64,000 nt of DNA from NCBI GenBank assembly GCA_030682795.1, contig JAUXNJ010000013.1:1-64000 (forward strand), in the 5' to 3' direction. Each line of letters opens with the position of its first letter. Position 1 is the first letter of the stretch. This document shows positions 11,101 through 29,756 of the stretch, piece by piece. The position numbers were made by a program, and so were the translations under genes. Below the pieces are notes generated by a model. The model was not told the origin of the DNA and made no database searches. It saw nothing but the letters and a program-made list of their open reading frames with translations. Origin of the DNA: Sphingobacteriaceae bacterium. Lineage in GTDB: Bacteria > Bacteroidota > Bacteroidia > UBA7662.

Positions 11101-14100
11101 CTTGGTGGCAGTAGCATCTCCCAACATCAACGAGCAATTACCAGGCAAAGTCGTGTTTTTTGATACTTTAGGTAATTACATCAGTCAAGTTACCGTAGGA
11201 TCCTTGCCCGATATGTTGGTGTTTAGTCCCGATGGCAACCGCCTCCTCGTAGCCAACGAAGGTCAACCCAATACAACCTTTACCGTCGATCCCGAAGGCT
11301 CTGTGAGCATCATCAATACTTCTGGAAGCACCATTACCCAATCCAATGTAACTACCCTCGATTTCACTGCTTTTAATGCGCAAGAAGCTAGCTTGATTGC
11401 AGCCGGGGTGAGAAAAGGTTCAACCATCGGCACCTTATCGCAAAATTTGGAGCCAGAATATATCGCGGTTTCAGATGACAATACCAAAGCTTGGGTTACC
11501 CTCCAGGAAAACAACAGCATTGCAGAAATCAATTTGCTGAACAATACCATCACCAGCATCAGAGGTTTGGGGCTGAAAGACAACAGCGTGCCAGGTAATG
11601 GCTTCGATGCATCCGACAATATCCCAGAAGTGTTGCTGGTAGCTTGGCCTACTAAAATGTACTATATGCCCGATGCCTTGGGACAGTTTACCGTAGGTGG
11701 CAATACCTATCTGGTTTCTGCCAATGAAGGCGATGAGCGCGAGTATAGTGCCTTAAATGAGCGTACTACCGTAGGTGCTGCTTCTACAGTGCTCGATCCA
11801 ATGGCTTTCCCGAATGGCGATATGCTCAAGGAGAACCATGCCATTGGTCGTTTACGCATTACTAATTTGAACGGCGACAACGATTCGGATGGCGATTACG
11901 ACAACCTCATTAACGTAGGCGCTCGTTCCTTCAGCATTTGGAACAGCCAAACAGGCACCCAAGTGTGGGATAGTAAAAACCAATTGGAAGTAATTACTCA
12001 ACTCGACCCTGTATTCGGCGCCTTGTTTAATGCCGATCACGAAAGCAATACGCGCAAAAACCGCAGCCGCTCTAAAGGTCCTGAGCCAGAAGGATTGGCA
12101 ATGGCCAAAGTTGGTAACAGGCACTTTGCCTTTATCGGCTTAGAGCGTATTGGTGGTGTAGTGGCTTATGAAGTAACCGACCCGACCGCACCTGTATTCA
12201 ATGGCTACCTCAACCCACGCAGTGTAAGCAGCGTAGCGGGCGACCGTGGTGCCGAAACCATGATTTACATTGCTGCAAATGAGAGTGCTAATGGCAAGCC
12301 TTACCTCGTCGTGGCCAATGAAATCAGCGGGACTTTAAGCATCATTGAGCTGAGCTTTAATGTGCAGCCACAAAACAACAGCTATACCCTCCAGATTTTG
12401 CATGCATCCGATATGGAAGGTGGATTGGATGCTCCGAAAGATGCTCCGAATTTTGCTGCGGTGATTGATAAATTGGAAGATGAGTTTGCCAATACGGTGA
12501 TTTTATCGAGTGGCGACAACTTCATTCCAAGTCCGTTTTTGAGCGCGGGTGAAGACCCAAGCTTGCAAACGCCTTTGCGCAATGCTACCAATTTGTTCTA
12601 CCCGGGCCAGCACTTGGTGCGTCCGGCGATTGGTCGCCCCGACATTGCCATCATGAACCTCATTGGTTTCAATGCAAGTGTGTTTGGTAACCACGAATTT
12701 GATTTGGGTACCGGGGAGCTCAACAGCATGATTGGTGTCGACATCCGTAACAATGGCGCCGACAAGCGTTGGGTGGGAGCACAGTTCCCGTACTTGAGCG
12801 CGAACTTGAACTTCTCGGCAGACGTGAACTTAAACTACTTGGTTACGGCCGATGGACAATTAGACACGGCCTTCCGTACCCCTGCCAACATCACCAACAA
12901 CAACCAAAAGAAGGGCATTGCCCGTTCAGCGGTCATTGAGCGTGGTGGTCAAAAAATCGGTATTGTAGGCGCCACTACCCAGGTATTGGCCACCATCAGC
13001 TCACCGGGTGCAACCACCATGGTTGGTCCATCTGTAAACGATATGCCTGCTTTGGCAGCGATTTTGCAGCCGGTAATCGACAGCCTGCGTTTTGGTCAGG
13101 GCATCAACAAAATCATCGTGCTCTCACACCTGCAGCAGTTGAGCTTGGAGCAAGCTTTAGCCCCATTGTTAACTGGTGTAGACGTAATCATTGCAGGTGG
13201 CTCGCACAGTTTGTTGGCCGATGCCAATGATATTTTGCGCCCTGGCGATGTAGCCGTAGGCACTTATCCGCAAATCCGCACGGGTGCCAACGGTCAGCCT
13301 ACCTTGTTGGTGAACACCGAGAGCGAATACAAATATGTTGGTCGCTTGGTGTTAGCATTTGATAGCCTGGGTGTAATTGATACCACGGCATTAAATCCAT
13401 TGATCAACGGCGCTTATGCCACCGACTCAGCTGGTGTAGCCCGCGTTTGGGGATCTTATGCAGCTGGCTTCCTGCCTGGCAGCAAGGGTGCAAACGTAAA
13501 AGCACTTACCGATGCGGTTCGGACGGTGATTGTAGCCAAGGATGGCAATGTGTTTGGTAAGTCAACGGTGTTCTTAGAAGGCCGTCGCGAGTTAACCCGC
13601 ACCGAAGAAACCAACTTGGGTAATTTGAGTTCCGATGCCAACTTGTGGCAGGCACGCCAGGTAGATCCAACCGTGACGCTTTCATTGAAGAATGGTGGTG
13701 GTATCCGTCAGGCGATGGGAACGGTGAATGCTGTAGGCAGCACCGTAACCTTGCAGCCAACGGCAGCCAACCCGGCAGCGGGCAAGCAACAGGGCGATAT
13801 TAGTCAATTAGACATTGAAAACGCCTTGCGCTTCAACAACCGTTTGAGTGTATTGACCATTCCTGTTACAGGTATCAAGGCGCTACTTGAGCATGGCTTG
13901 GCGCAAACAGCGCCTGGTGCAACACCTGGTCGCTTCCCACAAGTTGGTGGTATGGCCTTCAGCTATGACCCAACCTTGCCTGTAAACAGCCGCATCCGTT
14001 CGTTGGTGCGCATCGACTCAGCGGGCAATACGGTAGATACATTGGTGCGCAATGGACAGATCCACGGCAACCCGGCCCGTACCTACAAAATGGTTACCTT

Positions 14101-15751: not shown

Positions 15752-15903
15752 CAGGGAAAATTAATTTTGAATGTCCGATTTTCGGGTGGGAGAGGATGCT
15801 AGTTTATGGTTGAAATGACTAGGATAACTCGTGATTTTTTTTCTTCCTTTATTTAAATTGTAAAAAATACTATAACTTGTCCTTTCAAATTAAGAAATCT
15901 GTA

Positions 15904-17223
15904 ATGACCTGTTGTAGAAGCTTAATCATTCTCACGCTTACTTGGCTGTTGCTGCAGTCTGCCAAGGCGCAGCCCATCCATACCGAAGTAGGCAAAAACG
16001 CGGCAGGCGAGTACACCTTGCTCCGAAATGGCGAGCCCTACTACGTAAAAGGCGCGGGCGGCTCGGTTTACTTAAAAGAAGTGGTGGCCGCAGGGGGCAA
16101 TTCCATCCGCACCTGGGGCACCGAAAATGCCAAAGCCATCTTAGACGAAGCCCACAAACACGGACTCACGGTAATGATGGGACTTTGGCTGCAGCACGAG
16201 CGGCATGGCTTCGATTACGACGATTCCGTGGCGGTGCGCCGGCAAAAAGAAGCCTTCCGCAAAGAGGTGATGGCGCTGAAAGACCATCCGGCCTTGTTGG
16301 CTTGGGGCGTGGGCAACGAGGTAGACCTCAATTACAGCAATACCAATGTGTGGTACGCGGTGGAAGACATCGCCCGCATGATCAAAGAAATAGATCCGCA
16401 CCATCCTACAACTACCATTACCGCTGGCCTCGACTCGGTAGAGGTGCAGCTGATCAAAGCCCGCTGTCCGAGCCTCGATTTTTACAGCATCAACACCTAT
16501 GGCGACCTCGACAAACTGCCGAGTCAGATACAGCGCTTCGGCTGGACCGGTCCTTATATGATTACCGAATGGGGCCCCAATGGCCACTGGGAGGTGAAAC
16601 GCAGTCCTTGGGGCGCACCACTCGAACAAACATCCGCCCAAAAGGCCGAAAGCTACACCCGCCGCTATCAGGATAAAATTTGGGCCGAAAAGTCGCATTG
16701 CATGGGTTCTTACGTGTTTTTGTGGGGACAAAAACAGGAAACCACACCTACCTGGTACGGCATTTTTACCGAATACAAAGAAAAAACCGAAACCCTTTGG
16801 GCCATCAAACAGGCCTGGATGGGCACCCAAGAGGCCGCACCGGTATCGCTGCTTGCCTTTGACCAGCCGTATATCTTAACCAAAGCCGGGGGAAAGGTAG
16901 AAGTAAAGCTCCATATGAAAAAAACCAGCAGCAAAAAGGGCACGCTACGCTATGAAATCATTCCCGAGAGTCAGGACATTAAAGCTGGTGGAGACGTAGA
17001 AAACCGCCCCCCAAGCGTGAGCCGTAAAAAGTTGCGGTCGCTCGATTGGGACTTTTTGTCAGTGAAGATGCCCATGGTAGAAGGGGCCTACCGCATTTTT
17101 ATATATGCAGAAGCCGAAGGATGGGTGGCTTATGGCAATGTGCCCGTTTTTGTGCAGCCCCTGCCCGCCGGCGATCGGCCTCGCAAAGCCATTCAGTTCG
17201 AAACCTTTAGTCAGCTGCCATGA
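15904..17223 (+). CDS. Exported clan GH-A glycoside hydrolase (GH2-TIM or GH158-like)
   Basis: 439 residues from ATG 15904, which gives a signal peptide (SLIILTLTWLLLQSAKAQ). The TTG at 15877 is a less likely start. A TIM barrel carries the two clan GH-A glutamates: acid/base in GVGNEVD (Glu139) and nucleophile in MITEWGPNG (Glu222). Conserved features include NSIRTWG near the start and a Trp-rich end of the barrel (GSYVFLWGQKQE). A beta-sandwich of about 110 residues follows. Such enzymes cut beta-glucans or beta-glucosides. First gene of a tightly packed operon; its TGA overlaps the next ATG by four bases. Proposed role: endo-cleavage or trimming of a beta-glucan outside the cytoplasm. The exact family cannot be fixed by eye. 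Confidence 0.8.
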   Translation: MTCCRSLIILTLTWLLLQSAKAQPIHTEVGKNAAGEYTLLRNGEPYYVKGAGGSVYLKEVVAAGGNSIRTWGTENAKAILDEAHKHGLTVMMGLWLQHERHGFDYDDSVAVRRQKEAFRKEVMALKDHPALLAWGVGNEVDLNYSNTNVWYAVEDIARMIKEIDPHHPTTTITAGLDSVEVQLIKARCPSLDFYSINTYGDLDKLPSQIQRFGWTGPYMITEWGPNGHWEVKRSPWGAPLEQTSAQKAESYTRRYQDKIWAEKSHCMGSYVFLWGQKQETTPTWYGIFTEYKEKTETLWAIKQAWMGTQEAAPVSLLAFDQPYILTKAGGKVEVKLHMKKTSSKKGTLRYEIIPESQDIKAGGDVENRPPSVSRKKLRSLDWDFLSVKMPMVEGAYRIFIYAEAEGWVAYGNVPVFVQPLPAGDRPRKAIQFETFSQLP

Positions 17224-19265
17224 AGTGTATGAAGTTGTTTTTCCTCCTTGGGGGGATGTGGCTTGGAGGAGCGACAGCAGCTCTGGCCCAAATGCAGCAA
17301 GCTGGCGAGCTGGCGCCAGTGCCGGTAACCGACAGCAGTCTGCAAGTCGCCAAAGTGGTTCCAAAAAGCGAGTTGCGCGCGCGATTGTTGCGATTGCTGG
17401 TCGACAGCACCCAAGCCAACAGCGGCCTGGCGACAACCGATTGGGGCAATTTCCCGAAGCAGGAGCCAAGCCGCCTGCGCTCGCTCAACGTAAATGGATT
17501 TTACCGCTTTTTTGGCACCTACCGCAATATGCCGGGAGATTATGCCTTTGTAACGGGTGGCACCTTGCCACAGCGTGAGATTTTTATTGGAGATGACACC
17601 CAGCTGCCAAATTTGATGTTCAACATCAGCGGCAAATCGCGGCCGGGCATGAGTTGGGGAATGGATATTTTTGCCTTCCAATTCCTCGATCGGCCGGGTT
17701 TAACGGCATACAGTCCGAGCACCCCCGACACCGCGCGGCCCAACATCGACCGCCCGCTCGAAAGTCCGCGCCTCGGTCAAAGTCTGCTCCTCAACCTCGG
17801 TCTCAACCTCTATTCCACCATCCAAACCTCCCTGGGTCCGCTCAGCATCAAGCTCGGGGGCATTCACTGGGTGCAAATGACCGACCTCACCATGGGCGCA
17901 TACACCGCCTATGAACGCTATATGTTGTTCGACCGCAACCCTTGGGATCCCATTGGTGCCAATGTTTTTGAGCGCTATAATCGGTATGTTGACCAAGGTC
18001 AAGTAGACCAAGAAGAACGTTGGGGCCAGCGTGCTTTTGCTGGGATAGTGGTCGACATGGCGCAGCTGCCGCACAACCAGTCGCTCAAAGTGATGTTTGG
18101 CAAAAACGAGCAAAACGGTGGCTTCGACCTGCGTCCCAATACCGCCTACGGAGGTCAATATGCCTACGCCCCCAATGCCGAGTGGAAGCTCAGCTTGCAA
18201 ACCATGAACCAGTTGGCGTATCAAGACAGCCTGTTGCTCAAGCCTTTTGGCTCGATGATCCACACCTTAAAGGTTGACCACCGCCTGTCGAAACTACATT
18301 GGCAGCTCGAAACGGGCTATTCGGGCTACCAATCGCAGCAAACCGGCCAACTCGGCGGCTGGCTGGCACAAGCCAAATACGACTACCGCTTCAACAAAAC
18401 CTGGAAACTCTTTGGTCAGGCTTATGCCATCGATCCTTCAGCAGTAAACAACGTAGGCGCCTTTGTAAATACCAGTGTGAGAGAAGCCACCACCACCGAT
18501 ATCCCAGCAGGACAAGCAGGCAGCGGGGCTTTGCTCTTCCCCACCAATTCATCGCTGCTCGGCTTTGGTCAGCTGGCCAACAACCGCATGGGTTTCGACG
18601 CCAACCTTTCCTACAAACCCACCAACATTCACTTCACCCTCGGCTACAGCCTGAGTCGCGAAATCAATACCGGTGCTACCAGTTTGTCGTTTGGCCGCCC
18701 AGTGAACGCCCTCACCCGTTCGCGCTTCTGGCGCTGGGGTTTTCCGCAAAATGTGGGTCCTTACGGCCGCACCAATTTGCTGTACCGCAACACCTTCGAC
18801 AAAGTAGCCTTTACCGACACCCTCCAGTCGCATTTGCACTTCTCCCAAATCGAGTTCCAGGCGCTGTATCGGGTACGGGTGTGGGACAAAGTGCTGGTGT
18901 TTAACCATTTTTTACGCACCCAGTCGGTGCAAGATGCCGCCAGCTTCCTCAACACCAGTCCCCAAGCCATTCTCCGCCAATACGCCTCCGAAAACGAACT
19001 CTATTTGCAGTGGAACGACCGCTTTACGCTGGTATTCCTCGGCAGTGCCGATGTAACGCTGGGCGGCGTACTCACCGGCGTAAATGCCATCGGTCGTCCC
19101 TTAGAGCAATACGGCAGTGCCTACGGCTTTGGCTTTGATATTTGGGCCGCCGACAACGTTTGCCTGTATTTCCGCCAGCGTTATTTTAATTTTGAAGACC
19201 GCAGTTTTACCCTCGACACCTACCGCGGCGTTGAATCCACCCTTGAACTTAAGCTCATTTTCTAA
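17220..19265 (+). CDS. Large outer-membrane beta-barrel-like protein of the glucan locus
   Basis: 681 residues, no named family recognised. Signal peptide (LFFLLGGMWLGGATAALA), then about 60 linker residues, then a long run of amphipathic beta strands rich in Tyr, Phe, Trp, Asn and Gly, ending in a barrel-closing strand with terminal Phe (STLELKLIF). There is no TonB box, plug domain or SusD partner, so it is not SusC. The ATG overlaps the upstream GH stop (ATGA), and its own TAA overlaps the next ATG by one base, so translation is coupled on both sides. Likely a porin or scaffold for the locus's glycan, but that rests on context. Confidence 0.7.
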   Translation: MKCMKLFFLLGGMWLGGATAALAQMQQAGELAPVPVTDSSLQVAKVVPKSELRARLLRLLVDSTQANSGLATTDWGNFPKQEPSRLRSLNVNGFYRFFGTYRNMPGDYAFVTGGTLPQREIFIGDDTQLPNLMFNISGKSRPGMSWGMDIFAFQFLDRPGLTAYSPSTPDTARPNIDRPLESPRLGQSLLLNLGLNLYSTIQTSLGPLSIKLGGIHWVQMTDLTMGAYTAYERYMLFDRNPWDPIGANVFERYNRYVDQGQVDQEERWGQRAFAGIVVDMAQLPHNQSLKVMFGKNEQNGGFDLRPNTAYGGQYAYAPNAEWKLSLQTMNQLAYQDSLLLKPFGSMIHTLKVDHRLSKLHWQLETGYSGYQSQQTGQLGGWLAQAKYDYRFNKTWKLFGQAYAIDPSAVNNVGAFVNTSVREATTTDIPAGQAGSGALLFPTNSSLLGFGQLANNRMGFDANLSYKPTNIHFTLGYSLSREINTGATSLSFGRPVNALTRSRFWRWGFPQNVGPYGRTNLLYRNTFDKVAFTDTLQSHLHFSQIEFQALYRVRVWDKVLVFNHFLRTQSVQDAASFLNTSPQAILRQYASENELYLQWNDRFTLVFLGSADVTLGGVLTGVNAIGRPLEQYGSAYGFGFDIWAADNVCLYFRQRYFNFEDRSFTLDTYRGVESTLELKLIF

Positions 19266-20920
19266 TGAAGAAGTTATTATACCTGCCGCTGCTCTTGGCC
19301 AGTCAAATGCTTTTGGCGCAGTCGCCACCCCCCAAATACGCCATCAACGGCGGGGCGCGGGCGGTGTATTTCGCCGATCAGTTTAACAAGACGGGCGACA
19401 GCACCACTTTGCCGCGTGAAAATTCGGGCCATGTGCTGGCCGATTTGGGCGTGAATGTGCGGCCAAATGCAGCCACTGAAATACAAGCCATGGTGCGCAT
19501 CCGCAACGATTATGGCGGATTTTGGGGCTCTGGCGTGAGCTTCGACATTCGGCAGTTGCAGGTCAAAGGCCTCATCCAAAATAAATTCCGCTATACTTTG
19601 GGGGATATGGACTATGCCCTTACCCCATTTACCATGCATCGAACAGCGCCTGTGCTGGAGGCAACCACGCATTTGCCTGCTTTGGCACTCTTTCAGCAAC
19701 AAATGGCTGGCTACGATGTGTTTATGAATCCAGATGGCACCTGGCGTACCCAGGGCGGTTCGTTGGATTTTAATTTTTTGTTCCGCAAAGGACCAGAACG
19801 CATGAAAAACTCACTTTTTGCCATGCGTTTACGGCCGAGTTTCGGCGGTGCAGCCACTGAGCAATGGTCGTTTGGCGGCCGAACCGAGTTTTTGTGGAAG
19901 ACTTTCCCGCTGCGTATCGGTGGCACGGCCGTCTCCATCCGCGATTTGGCCGGTACCAGCGCCGATACCAACTTATATGCCAGCAATGTATTTACTACCG
20001 ACGGCGGCTTGGGCAACGGCTTCCTACAGTTGAACTGGGAAACCGGCATTGCCAATGCCAGTTTTAGGGATGTAAACGCTACCCAAAAGACCGACTATTT
20101 TTACACCCTCGGCCTTAAAGTGGGTAAAAGCCTACATTTTAGTTACCGCGACGTAGGTCCCGATTTCTTCAGTCCCGCCGCCCAAACCACCGCCTACAAT
20201 CCTACAGGAGCCCCGCGCTCGTTCCGCACCATTGGCAACGACCGCGCCATTCGCCAGGCCAGCATCTACGACTTCACCCGCGAGGCCGGTTTGTACCGAT
20301 CTACTTGGAACAGCACCTTGGGCAACGACCAATCGACCTACCTCTTGCTCGACCCCTTCGGTGAAGCCACCCCCAATCGCCGTGGCCTCTCTGCCAGCTG
20401 GCAGCCAAAAATGGGGATAGAGGCCCTAACGCTAGCCCTCAAAGTAGACCGTTTTTCTGAGATCAGAGGCAGCGGCACCAATGCCCTTACCCAGTTTTCA
20501 AGGGCAGAGTTAACGGCAGTTTACACGCTCAAAGACTGGATTTTTAGCGGGATGTACCGCGACCAACGTGCCTGGCGTGCCGATAACGAGGCCGAGGTGC
20601 CCGATTTGCAACTCCAGCAACCTTGGATCAGTGTGAATGTTGGCCGTCAATTTGGCGACAACCTCCGCCTCGATGCCGGTGTGCTGCAACTCCAAAGCAG
20701 AGGTTTTGTGCACGATGCCCAGCGCAATGCGCAAAACGAGATTGTTAATTATGTTGGAAGGGACGTAGATTATAGCGAACTTTTACCTGCTTTTTCGTTG
20801 AGCTACAAGGCCTTCGGTAAATCCACCCTGCAGTTGGGCTTTATCTCCAGCAGCATTACCAATGCCGGCAGCTTCTTTAACATACGTTCTGGATTTTTAG
20901 CTTACTTCATTCAATTTTAA
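19265..20920 (+). CDS. Second outer-membrane beta-barrel-like protein of the glucan locus
   Basis: 551 residues. Signal peptide (KKLLYLPLLLASQMLLA), then repeated amphipathic strands ending in SGFLAYFIQF with the terminal Phe typical of barrel insertion. It shares architecture with the preceding protein but no obvious sequence identity. Segments such as GARAVYFADQF, RIRNDYGGFWGSGVSFDIRQ and GLSASWQPKMGIEALTLALK look like strand-turn-strand units. There is no plug and no enzyme motif. It starts inside the stop of its neighbour and ends one base before the next gene. Together the two barrels stand where SusC/SusD would sit in a canonical polysaccharide locus. Confidence 0.7.
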   Translation: MKKLLYLPLLLASQMLLAQSPPPKYAINGGARAVYFADQFNKTGDSTTLPRENSGHVLADLGVNVRPNAATEIQAMVRIRNDYGGFWGSGVSFDIRQLQVKGLIQNKFRYTLGDMDYALTPFTMHRTAPVLEATTHLPALALFQQQMAGYDVFMNPDGTWRTQGGSLDFNFLFRKGPERMKNSLFAMRLRPSFGGAATEQWSFGGRTEFLWKTFPLRIGGTAVSIRDLAGTSADTNLYASNVFTTDGGLGNGFLQLNWETGIANASFRDVNATQKTDYFYTLGLKVGKSLHFSYRDVGPDFFSPAAQTTAYNPTGAPRSFRTIGNDRAIRQASIYDFTREAGLYRSTWNSTLGNDQSTYLLLDPFGEATPNRRGLSASWQPKMGIEALTLALKVDRFSEIRGSGTNALTQFSRAELTAVYTLKDWIFSGMYRDQRAWRADNEAEVPDLQLQQPWISVNVGRQFGDNLRLDAGVLQLQSRGFVHDAQRNAQNEIVNYVGRDVDYSELLPAFSLSYKAFGKSTLQLGFISSSITNAGSFFNIRSGFLAYFIQF

Positions 20921-20921
20921 G

Positions 20922-21917
20922 ATGCGTAAATCACTTCTTTTCGGACTTTGTTTGCTGGGTTTACTGGCTTGTAAGCGCGATTTAGATCCCGCCGGGCCTT
21001 TACTCACTGATCTTTATGGGGACTTTAGAGTGCTAGAACCACTGTCCCGCTCGGCTGGGCAAATCGACTTCAGTACAGGCCAAAGAGCCCATTTTACGGC
21101 ACGGGTAAGTGTGCTTTCCGACTGGGAAATTCAAATTACTGGCCGCAACTCGGGAGCCGTAAAGGTCATCACCGGCCGCTCGCGCGAAATTGATGTTACC
21201 AATGCCAGTTGGGGAGGTGAAACCACCCGTTTTCCAACCTTCCAAACCGAAGCCTGCGATGTGCAGCTTACTTTTCCTGGCAGAACCGACACCTTGCGTT
21301 CTAGCATCGAAGTTACAGGCCTCCGTGCCATCGACGCCATTATACTGGATGATTTTGAAACGGGCTTGTCGACCGCCTGGACCACCTTTGTGCAAACCGG
21401 CGCCGATATGAAGTTCCTGGGCGCCACCACGCCACCACTGGCCGAAGGCTTGCAGTATTACCGCATGGGTGGCACGGTGGGCTGGGACTGGCTTAAAGGC
21501 CTCCTCACCCTCAATGCTTCAGCCTATAACAGTACCACTGGTTTTGGTTTGCCTAACAATGCAACTCAAGTGCATTTTAACGGCATTTTCCGTCAACGTA
21601 GCGACCTTACCAACGGCATTGTGCTTTTTCAGTTTAGAGAAGATGAAAATGGAGATGGTGTTTTTACGCCTGCTACAGAAGATATGTGGGCCATCGAAAT
21701 AAGACCAGGCGCCAATTGGAAGCTTGAAAGCATTCGTTATGCCGATTTAACGGCTTTGGAGAACGGCGCACCCACGGCACCTAAAGGCAATGGGGTGCAT
21801 GAACCACAAAAACTGTTGCGGGTAGATGTGCTTTTCTTGGCCAACCCTACCAGCGGTTATTCGGAATGCGATATGGATTTATTGGCCTTTTCACTCAACG
21901 GACCCGTTCAACCATGA
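20922..21917 (+). CDS. Surface lipoprotein, candidate glycan-binding protein
   Basis: 331 residues. The lipobox LLAC at about residues 14-17 makes it a lipoprotein. The first 130 residues look Ig-like, with alternating beta strands (HFTARVSVLSDWEIQITGRN). The second part starts AIILDDFETG and continues as a jelly-roll typical of carbohydrate-binding modules, with exposed aromatics (EGLQYYRMGG, GWDWLKGLL, DMWAIEIRPGANWKLESIRY). By position it matches the surface glycan-binding proteins of polysaccharide loci. It starts one base after the previous stop, and its TGA overlaps the next ATG. Binding specificity cannot be read from sequence. Confidence 0.65.
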   Translation: MRKSLLFGLCLLGLLACKRDLDPAGPLLTDLYGDFRVLEPLSRSAGQIDFSTGQRAHFTARVSVLSDWEIQITGRNSGAVKVITGRSREIDVTNASWGGETTRFPTFQTEACDVQLTFPGRTDTLRSSIEVTGLRAIDAIILDDFETGLSTAWTTFVQTGADMKFLGATTPPLAEGLQYYRMGGTVGWDWLKGLLTLNASAYNSTTGFGLPNNATQVHFNGIFRQRSDLTNGIVLFQFREDENGDGVFTPATEDMWAIEIRPGANWKLESIRYADLTALENGAPTAPKGNGVHEPQKLLRVDVLFLANPTSGYSECDMDLLAFSLNGPVQP

Positions 21918-23173
21918 GTTTAAGAAGCTGTGTTTTCGTCCTGCTCCTGCTTGGAAGCATGCCGCTGCTGGCACAAACCAGCGATAGCATGCGCACCATC
22001 GACCTTCAACCCGTGGAGGTGGAGGGCAAGCGTAGTTGGCTCAAGGCGGTACCCATTTCGATGTACGAATACAGCAATCCCGACAACGATTACGAACAAA
22101 TTGCAGGCTTTGCTTCTCTGGTGATTTTAGAAGGCGCCAGCGGGGATGAGCTTTGGAGCGATAGTAAAAAAGGCTGCATGAGTTTGCGGCTGCAGCAGGA
22201 TACGGCTTATCGGGTGCGGTGGGACAAACCCGGCGGCGGCTGTACTTGGGTGGGGATGGGTGTGGGCTGGGACCAATGGTCGGGCAAAAACCTCGCACCG
22301 CTGCTCGACAGTGCGGCCATCGAGCTCCGTGTGCGCATCCCTGAAGGTCGTGCCGTGCAAACCCTACCGCTGGCTTTTGGCCTCGAAGACTACAGCAACC
22401 GCCAAGCCTGGATGGGCATGTCGGCCAAATGGGTGGTTGATGGTCCGATTGGGCAACAATACGCCAACATCCGCCTGCCTTTGCAGCAGTTTAACTGGGA
22501 TGAACAACGCGCAGATCCCTCCAACGTTAAACAATTTATCATCCAGTTTGAAGCCTCTGGGGAAGTCGATTTGCGGCACATCAAAATAGTGCGCCACCAA
22601 GCAGCTAGCCGAAACCAAGCCGTGGCCCTTTATGCAAACAGCCTATGGAGCACACCTTGGCAGGCCGTTGGCGCCGACTCGGTGCGTTTGCGTTGGGATG
22701 AAAAGCATTTGTACGTACAAGCCATGTTGGCCGATACGCAAGCGCTTGTGAATACCCGAACCGGTGCGGATTTGTGGCAAGGCGACGCCCTCGAACTGGC
22801 TTTTGCAGCCCAACCCGAGCTCAGCAGCCGTCCCCGCGCCCGCATGCTTTTCAGCGACATCCACCTGGGCATCTCCCTGGGCGAAAAGGCTGAAGCCATG
22901 GAGTTCCGCACCCAAACCAATTTGCCGCTGCAACGCGAACTCAAAGCCTTGCCGGATGGGGGTTATTGGTTAGAAGTGGCCATCAAATGGTCGGATTTAG
23001 GTCGCGATCCCTGGGCCTTAACCGGTCGTTACCTGCTCGAAATAGCCCGCGACCAAGGCAATGCCAGCGGTCGCCAGGCACAAATACGTTGGAACAGTCC
23101 CGAATCTGAAGGCTTCCACACTTCGCCCTCCTATTGGGGAGAGCTGGTGGTGCCTGGTAAAATCAATAACTGA
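21914..23173 (+). CDS. Exported carbohydrate-binding protein (jelly-roll plus CBM9-like domain)
   Basis: 419 residues from ATG 21914, chosen because it gives a signal peptide (CVFVLLLLGSMPLLAQ) and the ATGA overlap usual in this operon; an earlier in-frame ATG at 21866 would not. Residues about 30-220 form a beta-sandwich ending in QFIIQFEASGEVDLRHIKIV, a complex-I or CBM11-like signature. Residues about 240-415 resemble CBM9/DOMON: VRLRWDEKHLYVQAMLADTQ, LWQGDALELAF, WLEVAIKWSDLG and YLLEIARDQGNASGRQAQIRW. No catalytic motif is present. It probably holds the glycan near the cell-surface enzymes. The next gene starts within its stop (TGATG). Confidence 0.7.
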   Translation: MSLRSCVFVLLLLGSMPLLAQTSDSMRTIDLQPVEVEGKRSWLKAVPISMYEYSNPDNDYEQIAGFASLVILEGASGDELWSDSKKGCMSLRLQQDTAYRVRWDKPGGGCTWVGMGVGWDQWSGKNLAPLLDSAAIELRVRIPEGRAVQTLPLAFGLEDYSNRQAWMGMSAKWVVDGPIGQQYANIRLPLQQFNWDEQRADPSNVKQFIIQFEASGEVDLRHIKIVRHQAASRNQAVALYANSLWSTPWQAVGADSVRLRWDEKHLYVQAMLADTQALVNTRTGADLWQGDALELAFAAQPELSSRPRARMLFSDIHLGISLGEKAEAMEFRTQTNLPLQRELKALPDGGYWLEVAIKWSDLGRDPWALTGRYLLEIARDQGNASGRQAQIRWNSPESEGFHTSPSYWGELVVPGKINN

Positions 23174-24003
23174 TGAAAACATTCCGTCACCTGGCAGCAG
23201 CGAGCCTGCTTTTTATACTGATGGCCTGTGAATTGGCCACCTTGCCTGCACCCCAAGGCCGCTCAGGCGATCAGCTGAACTTCAGCGGCCGTATCTGGAC
23301 AGTCAAAGGCGGGGAGCAGCTGTTTGGTCCCGGCCCCAATTACTTCAGCAAAGATTTGTATGCCGCTTATACCGACTCCAACGGCTACCTGCACCTCAAC
23401 ATCCGCAAACTGGCCGACGGCAACTGGCACTGCTCCGAAATCATCTCCAACGACGTGGTCGGCTACGGCCGCTATGTTTGGGTGGTAGAGTCCGACATGG
23501 TGAACATTCCCGACAATACCGTGCTGGGGCTTTTTACTTGGGACAACAACACCCTCATGACCCAAGCCAACAGCGAAGTCGATATCGAATTCAGTCGCTG
23601 GGGCATAGCCGGCGACCCCAAAACCCTGCACATGTCGGTGCAACCGGTGTGGTTCGGTCCCTTCAAACCCGAGCGCACCCGCGGCTACCAAATGCCTGCC
23701 GCTGCCGCCAATTCGCATACCACCCACGAGTTTATCTGGACCGACAGCCTCATCACTTGGAAAAGCTGGCTGGGCGATAAAAGCAATGAGCCCCCCATGG
23801 CCAGCTGGGAATTTAACCTCAACAATCCTGCGCGGGTAAAAGAAGAAGGGGGCATGATCAGCGCGCCCATCATCATCCCAGCGCCAGGGCCCACCACCAA
23901 CGCCCGCATCAACCTCTGGCTGGTGAACAACCAGGCAACAGGACCAAGCACCGGCCGCAATTATGAAATTGTGATCCGCTCTTTCCAATACGACCCGCTT
24001 TAA
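23173..24003 (+). CDS. GH16 family beta-glucanase lipoprotein
   Basis: 276 residues. Lipobox LMAC (residues 16-19). The GH16 active-site strand is SEVDIEFSRWG, with Glu135 (nucleophile), Asp137 and Glu139 (acid/base). This is the short ExDxE form found in lichenase- and xyloglucanase-type members rather than the ExDxxE form of typical laminarinases. The rest is a beta-jelly-roll (YLHLNIRKL, YVWVVESDMVNIPDN, ARINLWLVNN, NYEIVIRSFQYD). It should cut internal linkages of a beta-glucan at the cell surface, supplying oligosaccharides to the GH3 enzyme encoded next. Start codon overlaps the upstream stop; 11 bases separate it from GH3. Confidence 0.85.
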   Translation: MKTFRHLAAASLLFILMACELATLPAPQGRSGDQLNFSGRIWTVKGGEQLFGPGPNYFSKDLYAAYTDSNGYLHLNIRKLADGNWHCSEIISNDVVGYGRYVWVVESDMVNIPDNTVLGLFTWDNNTLMTQANSEVDIEFSRWGIAGDPKTLHMSVQPVWFGPFKPERTRGYQMPAAAANSHTTHEFIWTDSLITWKSWLGDKSNEPPMASWEFNLNNPARVKEEGGMISAPIIIPAPGPTTNARINLWLVNNQATGPSTGRNYEIVIRSFQYDPL

Positions 24004-24014
24004 ACAGCCTCCGC

Positions 24015-26258
24015 ATGTCTTTTCGCAGCCTTTTTTTTGTTCTGCTCAGCAGCCTGCTGTCAGCCGCCACCACCGCCCAAAGCATCGAGCAGCGCGTTGA
24101 TTCGGTGCTTCGCCTCATGACCCTCGACGAAAAAATAGGGCAGATGAACCAGTTCAATGGCTTTTGGAATGCTACTGGGCCGGTGCCTGCCGAAGGCAAC
24201 TCCCTAGAGCGCTATGAGCTTTTGCGCAAGGGCGGGGTAGGAGCCGTATTAAATGTGCAGGGCGTAAAAGAAGTGCGGGCTTTGCAAAAAATAGCCGTGG
24301 AGCAAACCCGCTTGGGCATCCCGCTGCTATTCGGTTGCGACGTAATTCATGGTTATAAAACCCTCACGCCTATTCCTTTGGCGGAGGCAGCCAGCTGGGA
24401 CCTGCAGGCCATCGAAACCTCGGCGCGCAATGCGGCCATCGAAGCTACGGCGGCGGGCATCAACTGGACTTTCGCGCCTATGGTAGACATTTCGCGCGAC
24501 CCACGCTGGGGTCGGGTGATGGAAGGTGCTGGGGAAGACCATTTTTTGGGCGCCAAAATTGCCACCGCCCGGGTCAAAGGCTTTCAGGGCACCGACTTAA
24601 GCGCCCCCAACACCCTCGCGGCTTGCGCCAAACACTTTGCCGGCTACGGCTTTGTGCAGGCCGGTCGCGATTACCACCATACCGACTTTAGCGCCTACAC
24701 CCTCTACAACACCATTCTTCCGCCCTTCAAAGCTGCGCAAGAGGCTGGTGTAGCCACTTTTATGAACGCCTTTACCGCTTACAATGGCATTCCTTCGTCG
24801 GCCGACTCCTTTTTGATGCGCCAGGTGCTCAAAAAAGACTGGGCTTTTGAGGGGATGGTGGTGTCGGATTGGGGCTCGATCCAGGAAATGATGGCCCACG
24901 GTTATGCAGCTTCTTTGCAAGAAGTGGCGGAGCTGGCGGCTTTGGCAGGTTGCGATATGGACATGGAATCGAGCGCCTACGTGAAGCATTTGGCCGAGGC
25001 AGTACTGCAAAAGCGAGTGCCAGAAGCGCGCATCAACGAAGCCGTGCGACGCATCCTGCGTTTGAAATTCCAGTTGGGCCTGTTCGACGATCCTTACCGC
25101 TATTGCGACGAAAAACGGGAGGCAGCCACCATTGGCAGCGCCACTTTGCACAAAGATGCCCTCGACATGGCCAAAAAATCGATGGTATTACTCGAAAACA
25201 AAGGGGTGCTTCCCCTTCAAGCCAAGGATGAGGTAGTGCTATTAGGTGCCATCGCCAACGATCGTACCGCGCCCTTGGGTAATTGGCGCGTATCGGCCGA
25301 TAACGGTACCGCCATTCCGTTGACCGAAGGCTTGCAGGCCTATTTCCCCAACTTACGCTGGGCAACCGGTCCAATGGCCTGGAGCGGTCCCGAAGCTTTT
25401 CACGCCCCCATTCAAGTAAACGAAACCGATACTTCGGGCTGGGCGGCGGCCATGCAGCTGGCTGCAACTTCCAAAACGGTGGTGGTGGCCCTCGGTGAAC
25501 ACGGCTACCAATCGGGAGAGGGGCGCAGTCGCAGCTCCATTCGTCTGCCAGGCTTGCAAGAGGCTTTCCTCCGTGAACTGGTGCAGCAGCACCCCCGGGT
25601 AGTGCTGGTGCTTTTCGCTGGCCGGCCGCTCATCATCCCCGAGGACATCCGAAGCAAACTAGGCGCACTGCTTTTGGCTTGGCAGCCGGGCACCCATACC
25701 GGCGATGCCGTGGCTGCTGTATTGATGGGCCAGCACAATCCTTCGGGCCGCCTGCCCATGACCTTCCCACGCCACGAAGGCCAAATTCCCATGGCCTACA
25801 ACGACCCCACTGGTGGCAGGCCTGGTCCTTCCAGCGATGTGTTTTGGTCGCAGTACAACGACCTGCCCAATAGTCCCGCCTATCCCTTCGGCTATGGCCT
25901 CAGCTACAGCAAAATCAGCTACAGCAAGCCCAAAATGCAGGCGCTACCCGATGGTCGCAAAGTGCTCAGCGTTGAAATTACCAATAACTCGGCACGCCCC
26001 GCCACCGAAACCGTGCAGCTGTATGTAAAACTGCATGCCAACAAAGCAGGCATTCCGGCAGGCAAGCAACTCGCTGGTTTCCAGCAGCTGCAACTAGGTC
26101 CTGGCGCCAAGCAGTCAGCCATTTTTGTGCTCACTGCCGAAAGCCTTGCGCTGTTCGATGCCAACGGCCGTAAACATCCCGCCAAAGGCAAAGTCACCGC
26201 CTGGATTGTGCCCAATAGCGCGGATGAAACCGATTCTATTAACTTTGTACTCGACTAA
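24015..26258 (+). CDS. bglX: Periplasmic GH3 beta-glucosidase (BglX-like)
   Basis: 747 residues, the usual BglX length. Signal peptide (FRSLFFVLLSSLLSAATTAQ). The N-terminal TIM barrel has LDEKIGQMNQ, FAPMVDISRDPRWGR, CAKHFAGYG and the nucleophile Asp285 in GMVVSDWGS. The alpha/beta sandwich has EHGYQSGEGRSRSSIRLPG, which supplies the acid/base loop, and the C-terminal fibronectin-like domain begins near NDLPNSPAYPFGYGLSYSKI. It removes glucose from the non-reducing ends of beta-linked gluco-oligosaccharides in the periplasm. Member of the glucan operon, 10 bases before the regulator gene. Confidence 0.92.
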   Translation: MSFRSLFFVLLSSLLSAATTAQSIEQRVDSVLRLMTLDEKIGQMNQFNGFWNATGPVPAEGNSLERYELLRKGGVGAVLNVQGVKEVRALQKIAVEQTRLGIPLLFGCDVIHGYKTLTPIPLAEAASWDLQAIETSARNAAIEATAAGINWTFAPMVDISRDPRWGRVMEGAGEDHFLGAKIATARVKGFQGTDLSAPNTLAACAKHFAGYGFVQAGRDYHHTDFSAYTLYNTILPPFKAAQEAGVATFMNAFTAYNGIPSSADSFLMRQVLKKDWAFEGMVVSDWGSIQEMMAHGYAASLQEVAELAALAGCDMDMESSAYVKHLAEAVLQKRVPEARINEAVRRILRLKFQLGLFDDPYRYCDEKREAATIGSATLHKDALDMAKKSMVLLENKGVLPLQAKDEVVLLGAIANDRTAPLGNWRVSADNGTAIPLTEGLQAYFPNLRWATGPMAWSGPEAFHAPIQVNETDTSGWAAAMQLAATSKTVVVALGEHGYQSGEGRSRSSIRLPGLQEAFLRELVQQHPRVVLVLFAGRPLIIPEDIRSKLGALLLAWQPGTHTGDAVAAVLMGQHNPSGRLPMTFPRHEGQIPMAYNDPTGGRPGPSSDVFWSQYNDLPNSPAYPFGYGLSYSKISYSKPKMQALPDGRKVLSVEITNNSARPATETVQLYVKLHANKAGIPAGKQLAGFQQLQLGPGAKQSAIFVLTAESLALFDANGRKHPAKGKVTAWIVPNSADETDSINFVLD

Positions 26259-26268
26259 CGCAAAACCC

Positions 26269-26997
26269 ATGATGCAAGTCAATACCAGCTCCGACCTCCA
26301 AGAGGAACGCCAACGTCTCGATGCCTTTTTTCGTTTTGGCATCTCGGTCGACTGTGTGGTTTTTGGCTACGATGGCGAAAACCTCCAAGTGCTGCTCATC
26401 GAACGCGGCGCAGAACCCTACAAAGGCTTTGAGGCCATTCCCGGTGATTTGGTGAGTTTAAATGAAGACATTGACCAAGCCACCAAACGTGTTTTGAATG
26501 ATTTAACAGGACTGCCCGACATCTACCTCGAACAACTCAGTACGTTTGGGGCCGTGGAGCGACATCCCATGGGACGTGTAGTTACCGTGGTGTATTATGC
26601 CCTGCTCGATAAAAACTTGTATAACCCACACCCAGCCTCCTGGGCCAGCGAGGCTTATTGGAAAAATTTAGACGAAATAGGGGAGATGGCCTTTGACCAC
26701 CGCCAAATTCTGGAGGCAGCAGTGCAGCACTTACACCACAAAGTGCAGCATCAACCCATTGGCTTTGAGCTTTTGCCTGAAGAATTTACACTCGCACAAT
26801 TGCAGCACCTGTACGAAACCATCCTCAATACCTCTTTTGATAAAGGGAACTTTAGGAAGAAGATGTTGTCGATGAATGTGCTCATTCCCCTCGATAAAAT
26901 GCAAAAGGAAGTGCGCCATCGGCCTGCGCGGCTTTACCGATTCGACCAACAACGCTACGAGCAGTTGGTGCAAAAGGGCTATCTATTCGAGCTGTAA
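26269..26997 (+). CDS. Nudix-type transcriptional regulator (NrtR/AraR-like), degenerate Nudix box
   Basis: 242 residues from ATG 26269; an adjacent ATG at 26272 is equivalent, and the longer upstream frame lies inside the GH3 gene. Residues about 20-150 are a Nudix fold (SVDCVVFGYDGENLQVLLIE). The Nudix box reads GDLVSLNEDIDQATKRVLND, where the REUxEE catalytic acids are replaced (RVLNDL), so hydrolysis is unlikely and ligand sensing is expected. The C-terminal part (about 155-242) is a winged-helix domain (FTLAQLQHLYETIL, DKGNFRKKMLSMNVLI, RPARLYRFD). In Bacteroidota, regulators of this type such as AraR sense sugars. As the last gene of the glucan operon it probably controls that operon and the facing permease gene. 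Confidence 0.85.
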   Translation: MMQVNTSSDLQEERQRLDAFFRFGISVDCVVFGYDGENLQVLLIERGAEPYKGFEAIPGDLVSLNEDIDQATKRVLNDLTGLPDIYLEQLSTFGAVERHPMGRVVTVVYYALLDKNLYNPHPASWASEAYWKNLDEIGEMAFDHRQILEAAVQHLHHKVQHQPIGFELLPEEFTLAQLQHLYETILNTSFDKGNFRKKMLSMNVLIPLDKMQKEVRHRPARLYRFDQQRYEQLVQKGYLFEL

Positions 26998-27003
26998 CAG
27001 CCG

Positions 27004-28422
27004 TTAGTGCGCTGCTGCAGCCGCTTCTTCCAATACAATACCCCGTTTGCGCAATACCACTTGCATGCGGTAAGCGTAAAAGGCCAAGTAAGCAAAACAA
27101 ACCACACCTACCCAGTAGGAAGCTCGGATGCCCAACATTTCGTCGGAGCCCAACCAGCCTTGAAACACACTTACAAAGCCACCGCCCATGATCATCATGA
27201 TCAAGGCGTTTGATACCTGCGAGGTGCGGGTGCCCATGCCTGCAATGGCTAAGGTAAAGATGCAAGGCCAGAGGGTAGAGCAAAACAAACCCACCGCAAT
27301 AAAGGAGTAGATGGCCAAAGGACCTTCGGCATACATGCCCATCAAGGTAGCTACAATTCCCAGACTGGCGTAGAGGAAGAGCTGCTTCACAGGATTGCCT
27401 TTTACCAACCAATCAGCCACTACCAACAGCAATACGGCCGCTACAAAGGGCAAAAACTGACTTACGTCGTAGCCGCCCAGGGTGTTTACGAACATAAAGA
27501 TGCCAAATGCTACCAAAGGCAAAGCCCAGCGCAGCAGTTGACGCTGGCTACCTTTCGCACCCAAAGCTCCCGAAGCAGCGGTCCAGCGGCCAATCATTAA
27601 ACTGGCCCAAAACAGCGAGATGTATGGCGCCATCTGATCAAGCGCTATGCCATGGTACTTGATGAGATACTCGGGCAAGTTGCTGGCGGTGCTCACTTCT
27701 ACCCCTACATATAAAAAGATGGCAATCATGCCCATCCATACCTGGGGCGATTTAAAAATGCTTTCGGCGGGGAGGGCGTCGGGACTTTCATCCAAAACTG
27801 CTTCCTCGGGTTTGCCAAGCTCCATGCGCCAAAACATCAGGCCAAAAAGCACAAAAAAGGCACCCAGAATGAGGTAAGGGATTTTAACTGCGGCGATGTC
27901 GAGTGTGGGCGCAGCACCGGTACCCGCTTGTCCGAATATGGCAAAACTCAGCAGCAAAGGACCAAGGGTAGTGCCCAGGTTGTTAATGCCCCCCGCCATG
28001 CTGAGGCGCTGGGAGCCGGTTTCGGGACTTCCCAGGGAGATGGCCAAAGGGTTTGCCACCGTTTGTTGCAAACTAAATCCGATGCCCACTACAATCAAAC
28101 CCATCAGCAACAAAGGGAAGGAAGCATTGTTGGCCGCAGGAATGAACAACAAAGTGCCCGCCGCCGATATAAACAGGCCGATGGCCAAAGATTTGCCGTA
28201 GCCCCAACTCGATACTAAATCACGTCCCCGCATCCTCGAAATGGCCAAATAGCTCAGCGAACCCAAGGTATAGGCCACATAAAAAGCAAAGGCAATCATC
28301 TGACTTTGCCACTGCTCAAGTTGGAGTTTTTCTTTGAAAACAGGGATGAGGATGTCGTTACTGGCAGCCACAAAGCCCCAAAAGAAAAACACCGAGACGA
28401 TAAATATGAGTGATTTACGCAT
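27004..28422 (-). CDS. MFS sugar permease (FucP/GluP glucose-galactose type)
   Basis: 472 residues with 12 predicted membrane helices. The N-terminus (FIVSVFFFWGFVAASNDILI) has the FFxWGF...ND motif of the fucose and glucose/galactose permease family, and SLQQTVANPLAISLG followed by GGINNLGTTLGPLLL is characteristic of it. It is a proton-coupled inner-membrane importer. It is convergent to the glucan operon, six bases from the regulator stop, and is the expected route for glucose released by the GH3 enzyme. A terminator of the upstream minus-strand gene separates it from 28485, so it probably has its own promoter in the 62-base gap or is read through. Confidence 0.9.
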   Translation of the reverse strand: MRKSLIFIVSVFFFWGFVAASNDILIPVFKEKLQLEQWQSQMIAFAFYVAYTLGSLSYLAISRMRGRDLVSSWGYGKSLAIGLFISAAGTLLFIPAANNASFPLLLMGLIVVGIGFSLQQTVANPLAISLGSPETGSQRLSMAGGINNLGTTLGPLLLSFAIFGQAGTGAAPTLDIAAVKIPYLILGAFFVLFGLMFWRMELGKPEEAVLDESPDALPAESIFKSPQVWMGMIAIFLYVGVEVSTASNLPEYLIKYHGIALDQMAPYISLFWASLMIGRWTAASGALGAKGSQRQLLRWALPLVAFGIFMFVNTLGGYDVSQFLPFVAAVLLLVVADWLVKGNPVKQLFLYASLGIVATLMGMYAEGPLAIYSFIAVGLFCSTLWPCIFTLAIAGMGTRTSQVSNALIMMIMGGGFVSVFQGWLGSDEMLGIRASYWVGVVCFAYLAFYAYRMQVVLRKRGIVLEEAAAAAH

Positions 28423-28437
28423 AAGTTGGTTTTAGGC

Positions 28438-28467
28438 AAAAAAAAGCCCTCTACAGGGAGAGGGCTC
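28438..28467 (-). terminator. Rho-independent terminator (minus strand)
   Basis: On the minus strand AGCCCTCT, loop CCCTGT, AGAGGGCT, then a run of nine T. The plus-strand arms are 28446-28453 and 28460-28467. It ends the transcript of the T9SS two-repeat gene. Confidence 0.85.
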
Positions 28468-28484
28468 TAAGATAAGGGAGAATT

Positions 28485-29477
28485 TTATTGTACAATGAGG
28501 CGGAGGCTTTGCGTCGATTTTTGTCCTTGCCATTGTGCCACATACAAGCCAGCCTTGAGGCCCTCAAGGGAAATGTTTTGCGTGCCGATTTCAAGTGTCG
28601 TTTGAAGTACCAAGCGACCAGTCAAGTCGAATAATTGTAAAGCACCAGCTTCTTCACTTTCAAATGTTACATTTCCTTGGGCGGGATTCGGGAACATACG
28701 TAACGCAGCGGCCGTGGTGGTTTCTTTCACATTGCTGCTCAAACCACATGGCAAGCAGCTTCCCCAACAAACGGCAGGCAATAAGGCGTTGCCAGTAACT
28801 ACCAATACACGATTGGTGAATTGAAGGTTACCGTTGGTGCAGGCGCCGGCTGGATTGTTGGTTTCTTGTCCTGCCCAATTGTCGTGCGAGAATTTGTATT
28901 CCAAAGTGTCGCCAATTGGCAAATTGATGGTGATTTCCCAAATATCGTCGTTGTTGGCATCGGTCATGGGCGCACAATTGCCACACCAGTTGTTGAAAGT
29001 GCCATTGATTTCAGGGGTAGTGAACGTTCCTGTGAATTCATTCATGTCAACCCGGAAGGTAATGTTGGCAGTGGTTGGGGATGCTGCACATGGCAGGCAT
29101 GAACCCCAACAAACCACACCAAGGGTGGTGTCAGCGGTAGGTACAACCAAAACGCGATTTGTGAATTGGGTGTTTCCGTTGGTGCAGGGGGCGCTCGGAC
29201 TGTTCATTTCCTGGCCAGCCCAGTTATCGTACGAGTATTTGAACTCAACCGTTGCTCCTGTAGGAAGGGGGAGCGTTACTGTCCATACACCGTCATTGTT
29301 TGGATCGGCCATGGGGTTGCAATTGCCACACCAACTGTTCCAGGTGCCATTCACCTCGGGTGTGGTAAAATTGCCAGTAAAGGTATTCATATCAAGCTGG
29401 AAGGTAACGTTCGTGGTTTGCGCTTGAACGAAATATCCAAAGGTTGTGAACACCAATAGGAGTAGTGCTTTTTTCAT
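28485..29477 (-). CDS. T9SS-secreted protein with two tandem starch-binding-like domains
   Basis: 330 residues from the ATG complementary to 29475-29477, giving a signal peptide (KKALLLLVFTTFGYFVQAQ). Two repeats of about 105 residues follow, each with VTF(Q)(L)DMN, TF(T)GNFTTPEVNGT, W-CGNC, DGVWTVTLPLP, KYSYDNWAGQE and VCWGSCLPC. The fold resembles CBM20/CBM48-type glycan-binding domains, stabilised here by conserved cysteines. The last 75 residues are a T9SS sorting domain (MFPNPAQGNVTF...LRLIVQ). No catalytic residues are seen. The location beside the glucan locus suggests a secreted glycan-binding protein. Its own terminator shows it is a separate unit. Confidence 0.8.
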   Translation of the reverse strand: MKKALLLLVFTTFGYFVQAQTTNVTFQLDMNTFTGNFTTPEVNGTWNSWCGNCNPMADPNNDGVWTVTLPLPTGATVEFKYSYDNWAGQEMNSPSAPCTNGNTQFTNRVLVVPTADTTLGVVCWGSCLPCAASPTTANITFRVDMNEFTGTFTTPEINGTFNNWCGNCAPMTDANNDDIWEITINLPIGDTLEYKFSHDNWAGQETNNPAGACTNGNLQFTNRVLVVTGNALLPAVCWGSCLPCGLSSNVKETTTAAALRMFPNPAQGNVTFESEEAGALQLFDLTGRLVLQTTLEIGTQNISLEGLKAGLYVAQWQGQKSTQSLRLIVQ

Positions 29478-29756
29478 ATAAATGTTTTTGTTTTGAGTGT
29501 TAAGGTGTTGAAATCGTGACCAAAATAATAAGAAATTGTTAATTGTACTATAAGTCTCCGCTTTTTTTTCAACTTTTCGTTGAAGCAGCAGTGCAAAAGG
29601 CATTTAAAAGCATGCCTAGCCGCACTTCTAGAGTCGTTTTCCAATGACCATACTTGCTTTTCGAGCTCGGCTACACGGGTTGACAACCTTAAATAGCGTT
29701 AATTTTCTCCCATCTACCATCCTTTTGGTATCTTGTGCGTTACCAAAATAAAAAAG

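Follow-up and report, generated by a model that had tools for sequence, protein, structure and literature searches.

The 64,000-nt stretch of DNA analyzed here (the window) encodes an apparent beta-1,3-glucan utilization operon in which the outer-membrane step is probably carried out by three proteins, BarA, BarB, and LipX, instead of by SusC and SusD. The genes for these proteins form a fixed three-gene module that is widespread in Bacteroidota and accompanied by exchangeable enzymes. In the Bacteroidota, a susC/susD pair is the usual mark of a polysaccharide locus, and genomes relying on the module can therefore be mistaken for poor glycan users or for carriers of broken loci.

A predicted beta-glucan operon without SusC or SusD

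The plus-strand operon (15904 to 26997) consists of eight genes, each of which overlaps the next or lies at most 11 bases away, and two minus-strand genes face it. The features of the locus are as follows.

15858..15880, plus strand: candidate promoter/operator upstream of the operon, a 23-base element (TTGTAAAAAATACTATAACTTGT)
15904..17223, plus strand: GH158 endo-beta-1,3-glucanase that has a signal peptide but lacks a T9SS tail
17220..19265, plus strand: BarA, predicted 681-residue outer-membrane barrel-like protein without a plug
19265..20920, plus strand: BarB, second barrel-like protein, 551 residues
20922..21917, plus strand: LipX, 331-residue lipoprotein, putative surface glycan-binding protein
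21914..23173, plus strand: CBM9-like carbohydrate-binding protein (Pfam CBM9_1, 1.5e-10; weak match to CBM9 structure 1i82)
23173..24003, plus strand: GH16 lipoprotein glucanase (weak Pfam GH16 and weak NCBIfam beta-glucanase matches; catalytic motif EVDIE intact)
24015..26258, plus strand: GH3 beta-glucosidase, BglX-like, with a signal peptide (Pfam and NCBIfam; PDB matches down to 9.2e-167)
26269..26997, plus strand: NrtR/AraR-type Nudix transcriptional regulator (NrtR_WHD, 7.7e-29; AraR_C, 4.2e-15; NUDIX, 2.3e-6)
27004..28422, minus strand: MFS permease of the gluP/fucP group (TIGR01272, 2.7e-50, under the curated cut-off)
28485..29480, minus strand: T9SS-secreted protein with two CBM48-like domains (Pfam CBM_48 in two stretches, plus Por_Secre_tail)

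Successive stop and start positions on the plus strand are 17223/17220 (GH158/BarA), 19265/19265 (BarA/BarB), 20920/20922 (BarB/LipX), 21917/21914 (LipX/CBM9, an ATGA overlap, with the CBM9 start refined to 21914), 23173/23173 (CBM9/GH16), 24003/24015 (GH16/GH3), and 26258/26269 (GH3/Nudix regulator, with the regulator start refined to 26269). All ten open frames of the locus lay where a first-pass annotation had placed them, and its description of eight tightly packed plus-strand genes faced by MFS and T9SS genes was reproduced in frames, lengths, and junctions, including the 681 and 551 residues of the two barrel-like proteins.

Scans with Pfam and NCBIfam models returned zero matches to SusC, SusD, plug, or TonB-receptor families within the operon, in agreement with the absence of SusC/SusD and of a plug reported earlier. 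The susC/susD pair of a canonical PUL is missing from the locus, and the other elements of such a locus are present: co-located glycoside hydrolases (GH158, GH16, and GH3), putative surface glycan-binding proteins (LipX and CBM9), and a regulator of the Nudix type. The single canonical SusC/SusD pair of this genome is located on contig C23, away from the operon.

The first enzyme of the operon, originally described as a clan GH-A hydrolase, could be assigned more precisely to GH158. A profile built from 8 orthologues matched the GH158 structures 9oro (1.3e-111) and 6pal (1e-79), and both catalytic glutamates, including an Asn-Glu acid/base, were found as invariant residues among orthologues (N147, E148 as acid/base, and E231 as nucleophile). 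The 83 residues between the two glutamates equal the spacing from E137 to E220 in BuGH158 (PMC7157763). Because GH158 is a family of endo-beta-1,3-glucanases, and because GH16_3, GH158, and GH3 make up the enzyme set of a Bacteroides uniformis beta-1,3-glucan PUL (PMC7157763), the substrate predicted for the operon is most likely a beta-1,3- or mixed-linkage glucan. That PUL (BACUNI_01484-01490) shares with the window the GH16, GH158, and GH3 trio and a glycan-binding protein that is not SusD, but it encodes SusC, SusD, and an HTCS regulator where the window has BarA-BarB-LipX and a Nudix regulator (PMC7157763).

Among the remaining genes, the GH16 lipoprotein has orthologues of 48 to 81% identity in the same cassette elsewhere, the CBM9-like protein carries an additional N-terminal domain without a family match, relatives of the T9SS protein adjoin the cassette in other genera, and the MFS permease is a probable glucose importer.

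Two plugless barrel-like proteins and a lipoprotein

Neither BarA (33 diverse members) nor BarB (31 diverse members) had a confident relative in Pfam or in a profile search of the PDB. LipX, searched with diverse members, had no Pfam family of its own and nothing credible in a PDB profile search; one member matches CBM_11, and the lipobox cysteine (Cys17) is invariant in 24 of 24 diverse members. BarA weakly resembled BBP2 (PF07642, OmpL-like putative beta-barrel porin-2) over 115 residues only, at 0.0012 and 18.6 bits. BBP2 was rejected as the BarA family, as this score falls short of the 26.2 bits set as curated cut-off and 1 of the 33 members matched.

BarA and BarB have signal-like N-termini and a C-terminal barrel-insertion signal, the latter evaluated over all 33 BarA and 31 BarB members. 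Nearly all BarA members end in E-x-x-x-E-[LIF]-K-x-x-F, and BarB members end in an alternating hydrophobic stretch with F or L as the last residue. Such C-termini are expected of barrels inserted by the BAM machinery. Counts of amphipathic strands were 22 in BarA (12.6 ± 2.8 in shuffled sequences) and 21 in BarB (12.3 ± 2.7), compared with no excess in the GH3 control (27 versus 23.9 ± 3.7) and a mild excess in the GH158 control (18 versus 13.4 ± 2.5). On the basis of these sequence features, we infer a membrane location for both proteins. Models predicted from shallow alignments had unusably low pLDDT values of 29 for BarA alone and 27 for BarB with one relative, and a scan of viral_contigs supplied no further rows for the structure-prediction alignment. 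The first-pass view of a beta-glucan locus with two uncharacterized barrel-like proteins is well supported by the GH158, GH16, and GH3 enzymes, by the failure of both barrels to match any Pfam or PDB entry with confidence, and by their barrel-type C-termini and excess of amphipathic strands.

TonB-dependent transporters are marked by an N-terminal plug, which was seen in neither BarA nor BarB: none of the 33 BarA or 31 BarB members matched plug, STN, CarboxypepD_reg, or TonB-receptor models in HMM scans, which could miss a very divergent TonB-dependent barrel. In the shortest BarA members, barrel-like strands begin straight after the signal peptide, with no space for an N-terminal plug. Both observations argue against BarA being a divergent TonB-dependent transporter with a plug that is unrecognized or provided by another protein, which would make the module a far relative of SusC. 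The length of BarA would suffice for a large barrel, and a report on Cytophaga hutchinsonii describes a predicted structure for the outer-membrane protein CHU_1276 that resembles TonB-dependent transporters (PMC12016534). Taken together, we consider a hidden TonB-dependent transporter very unlikely, and plugless barrels are the preferred reading.

The BarA-BarB-LipX module is conserved across Bacteroidota

A search for the same gene order in other genomes, as the first-pass annotation had proposed, recovered the entire operon at 65 to 90% identity from L001, a MAG contig whose deposited name is Chitinophaga pinensis; it represents a sister species and was the closest relative found. Two further genera of the family encode a cassette at 26 to 54% identity in the order T9SS protein-Nudix-GH158-BarA-BarB-LipX-CBM9-GH3-GH16, in which GH3 and GH16 are swapped and some copies are split over contigs. 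Conservation in L001 and two other genera shows that these frames do not lie side by side by accident.

When BarA and LipX profiles were searched over 395 sampled Bacteroidia genomes, BarA was detected in 48, LipX in 51, and both in 47. Examination of the neighborhoods of 46 distinct BarA genes revealed BarB directly after BarA in every locus with a continuing contig, and the order BarA-BarB-LipX in 42 of 43 loci where the position of LipX was readable. The sole exception (L121, genome G104) retains BarA, BarB, and CBM9, whereas its LipX is reduced to a remnant that contains five in-frame stops. Beyond the class Bacteroidia, four genomes carried full-length BarA with BarB and LipX adjoining. 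Pairwise distances of BarA and BarB were correlated (0.87), a value not reached in any of 500 permutations and to which genome relatedness contributes.

The carriers also differed in their SusD content, as measured with PF07980, a model that misses some SusD-like proteins. Among the 48 BarA carriers, 16 had no PF07980 match, 27 had one, 2 had two, and 3 had three or more. Three or more matches were present in 3 of 48 carriers versus 75 of 347 noncarriers (Fisher P = 0.011, kinship ignored). Zero PF07980 matches were found in three genomes (G031, G111, and G173) that each encode the module three or four times.

These data bear on whether the operon could be the remnant of an ordinary PUL, with SusC/SusD acting from another genomic location and with the barrels as accessories. 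One SusC/SusD pair does exist on contig C23, and a PULDB survey that counted 2,533 susC/D-less GH/PL loci suggested that most were fragments or poor predictions (PMC6499787). Against a remnant, the module keeps a fixed gene order across many families, 16 of 48 carriers have no detectable SusD, including some genomes with three or four module copies, and SusC/SusD are dispensable for cellulose use in C. hutchinsonii (PMC12016534). This explanation appears highly improbable, and action of the lone SusC/SusD pair in trans was also considered and judged unlikely in view of the SusD-free carriers. A complete module that replaces SusC/SusD remains the better account.

Enzymes, regulators, and transporters change beside the module

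Most BarA loci contain GH158, GH16, and GH3, the order of which varies. Within a single family (f14), the same module is found beside GH9 (L125, L128, and L131), beside GH97 that may be accompanied by a GH13 amylase (L124 and L129), or beside GH18 with NagB and NagB/PIG-L genes (L132, L134, L146, and L147). Judging from these enzyme families, the three groups would be cellulose, starch, and chitin loci, respectively. GH16 labels of L129, L146, and L147 were left out as evidence, as they probably reflect a T9SS tail in the profile. On a BarA tree, each of these three sets of loci formed a single starred group, or one clade, and the substrate labels required 5 changes, compared to 12.6 in shuffles. 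The first-pass interpretation was largely right for the locus at 15904 to 26997 but understated its breadth, since the module occurs beyond this locus and beyond one substrate.

Inner-membrane transporters beside the module varied among MFS, SSF, and Sugar_tr families, and regulators were either Nudix or Reg_prop-LuxR proteins. The latter, of about 960 residues, take the place of the Nudix regulator in loci of other families (L113, L115 to L119, L121, L122, and L149). In the chitin-type BarA clade (L132, L134, L146, L147, and L151), two tandem LipX genes are present rather than one. GH97 in starch-type locus L124 (4182-6361) occupies two frames, of 241 and 487 residues, where L129 has a single 731-residue frame, which suggests a frameshift or assembly error. 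Among the subset of large neighboring frames that was scanned, the sole TonB receptor was at L142:628-3186, with a plug, about 5 kb upstream of BarA; L142 belongs to a genome outside the class, and no SusD was seen at this locus.

Probable relationship to the cellulose system of Cytophaga hutchinsonii

The closest known system is chu_1276-chu_1280 of C. hutchinsonii. Its products are a pair of outer-membrane proteins (CHU_1276 and CHU_1277), a pair of SGBP-like proteins (CHU_1278 and CHU_1279), and an endoglucanase; the cluster was termed an "atypical PUL" and is also reported to occur in two further, closely related cellulolytic bacteria (PMC12016534). This report, citing Zhou 2016 and Ji 2014, indicates from deletions that chu_1276, chu_1277, chu_1279, and chu_1280 matter for cellulose use. 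Like the window locus, it combines two outer-membrane proteins, one or more SGBP-like proteins, and a glycoside hydrolase with no SusC/SusD; unlike the window locus, it targets cellulose (GH9) rather than beta-1,3-glucan (GH158, GH16, GH3, and CBM9), and it has an ECF sigma factor rather than a Nudix regulator.

The GH9 loci link the two systems. L125, L128, and L131 scored 226 to 234 bits (BarA), 249 to 277 bits (BarB), and 119 to 138 bits (LipX) against profiles of the window family. Gene order was of the chu_1276-1280 type in both cases, with BarA-BarB-LipX-CBM9-GH16-GH3 in the window and BarA-BarB-LipX-tandem CBM-like-GH9 in L125, L128, and L131. The tandem protein of these GH9 loci has 380 residues, compared to the 375 residues of CHU_1279 (PMC12016534), and its aromatics match W89, F92, F180, Y253, F256, and F343 of CHU_1279, with small offsets allowed. 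The window locus is probably homologous to chu_1276-1280 with a different substrate, as judged by gene order, sizes, and the aromatic positions of the GH9 loci rather than by the CHU sequences. The term "uncharacterized" in the first-pass annotation holds for the barrels in that they have no confident family, yet a probable relative has been studied experimentally in C. hutchinsonii (PMC12016534).

Work on C. hutchinsonii also informs a reading of BarA and BarB as an outer-membrane scaffold that displays enzymes and binding proteins while oligosaccharides enter via general porins. Such a platform would fit the use of two barrels instead of one, the lipoprotein that always adjoins them, and the finding that the presence of CHU_1279 counts more than its cellulose binding (PMC12016534). 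It would not explain why, in the same report, growth on low glucose is affected once chu_1276 is lost and CHU_1276 is described as a protein of glucose uptake (PMC12016534), or why module loci always have inner-membrane sugar transporters or periplasmic-type exo-enzymes, and not solely secreted enzymes. We view a pure scaffold as rather unlikely, and favor a role for the barrels in uptake.

Proposed route of glucan use

BarA-BarB-LipX would be an outer-membrane module analogous to SusCD and responsible for the uptake step. At the surface, the GH16 lipoprotein and binding proteins (LipX, and perhaps CBM9 and the T9SS protein) may cleave and retain the glucan. Oligosaccharides would pass through BarA and BarB, as plugless barrels complexed with LipX, and could then be degraded by GH158 and the GH3 glucosidase, most probably within the periplasm. 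The resulting glucose would be taken up by the MFS permease encoded opposite the operon, and the Nudix regulator would control the operon.

A broader and more tentative proposal, to which we assign slightly less than an even chance, is that BarA-BarB-LipX represents a second system for general glycan import in Bacteroidota. Such a system would work without SusC/SusD, and probably without TonB, and its members would have come to serve different glycans, namely beta-1,3-glucan, cellulose, starch, and chitin. If true, this would explain part of the susC/D-less CAZyme loci that have been set aside as fragments, and the module is a reason to reexamine the 2,533 loci of the PULDB survey (PMC6499787). 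Three protein families that lack confident Pfam or PDB relatives can now be tested as an outer-membrane import system, and the unexplained cellulose system of Cytophaga would become a branch within a broader family whose members differ in substrate. Members that act on soluble glucan offer an easier model for the Cytophaga system.

Upstream region and sequence composition

The candidate element at 15858 to 15880 has a single match within the 64,000-nt window and differs by one mismatch from an element at the corresponding upstream position in the L001 operon; its function as a promoter or operator is putative. When a shared operator was sought between the upstream regions of GH158 and of the MFS/T9SS genes, the matches were T-rich terminator tails only.

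Between window positions 16001 and 28000, G+C content is 54% in the operon versus 43 to 51% in the flanks, and GC skew flips sign across the operon. This may reflect horizontal acquisition or an effect of expression. Directly upstream of the operon (8156 to 15697) is a gene for a 2,513-residue T9SS protein with choice-of-anchor I, 5'-nucleotidase C-terminal, and SusE-like domains, which has no counterpart upstream of the operon in L001. An alpha-amylase gene is located at 5199 to 6608 in the window, and in L001 a close relative (86% identity) is the immediate upstream neighbor of the operon.
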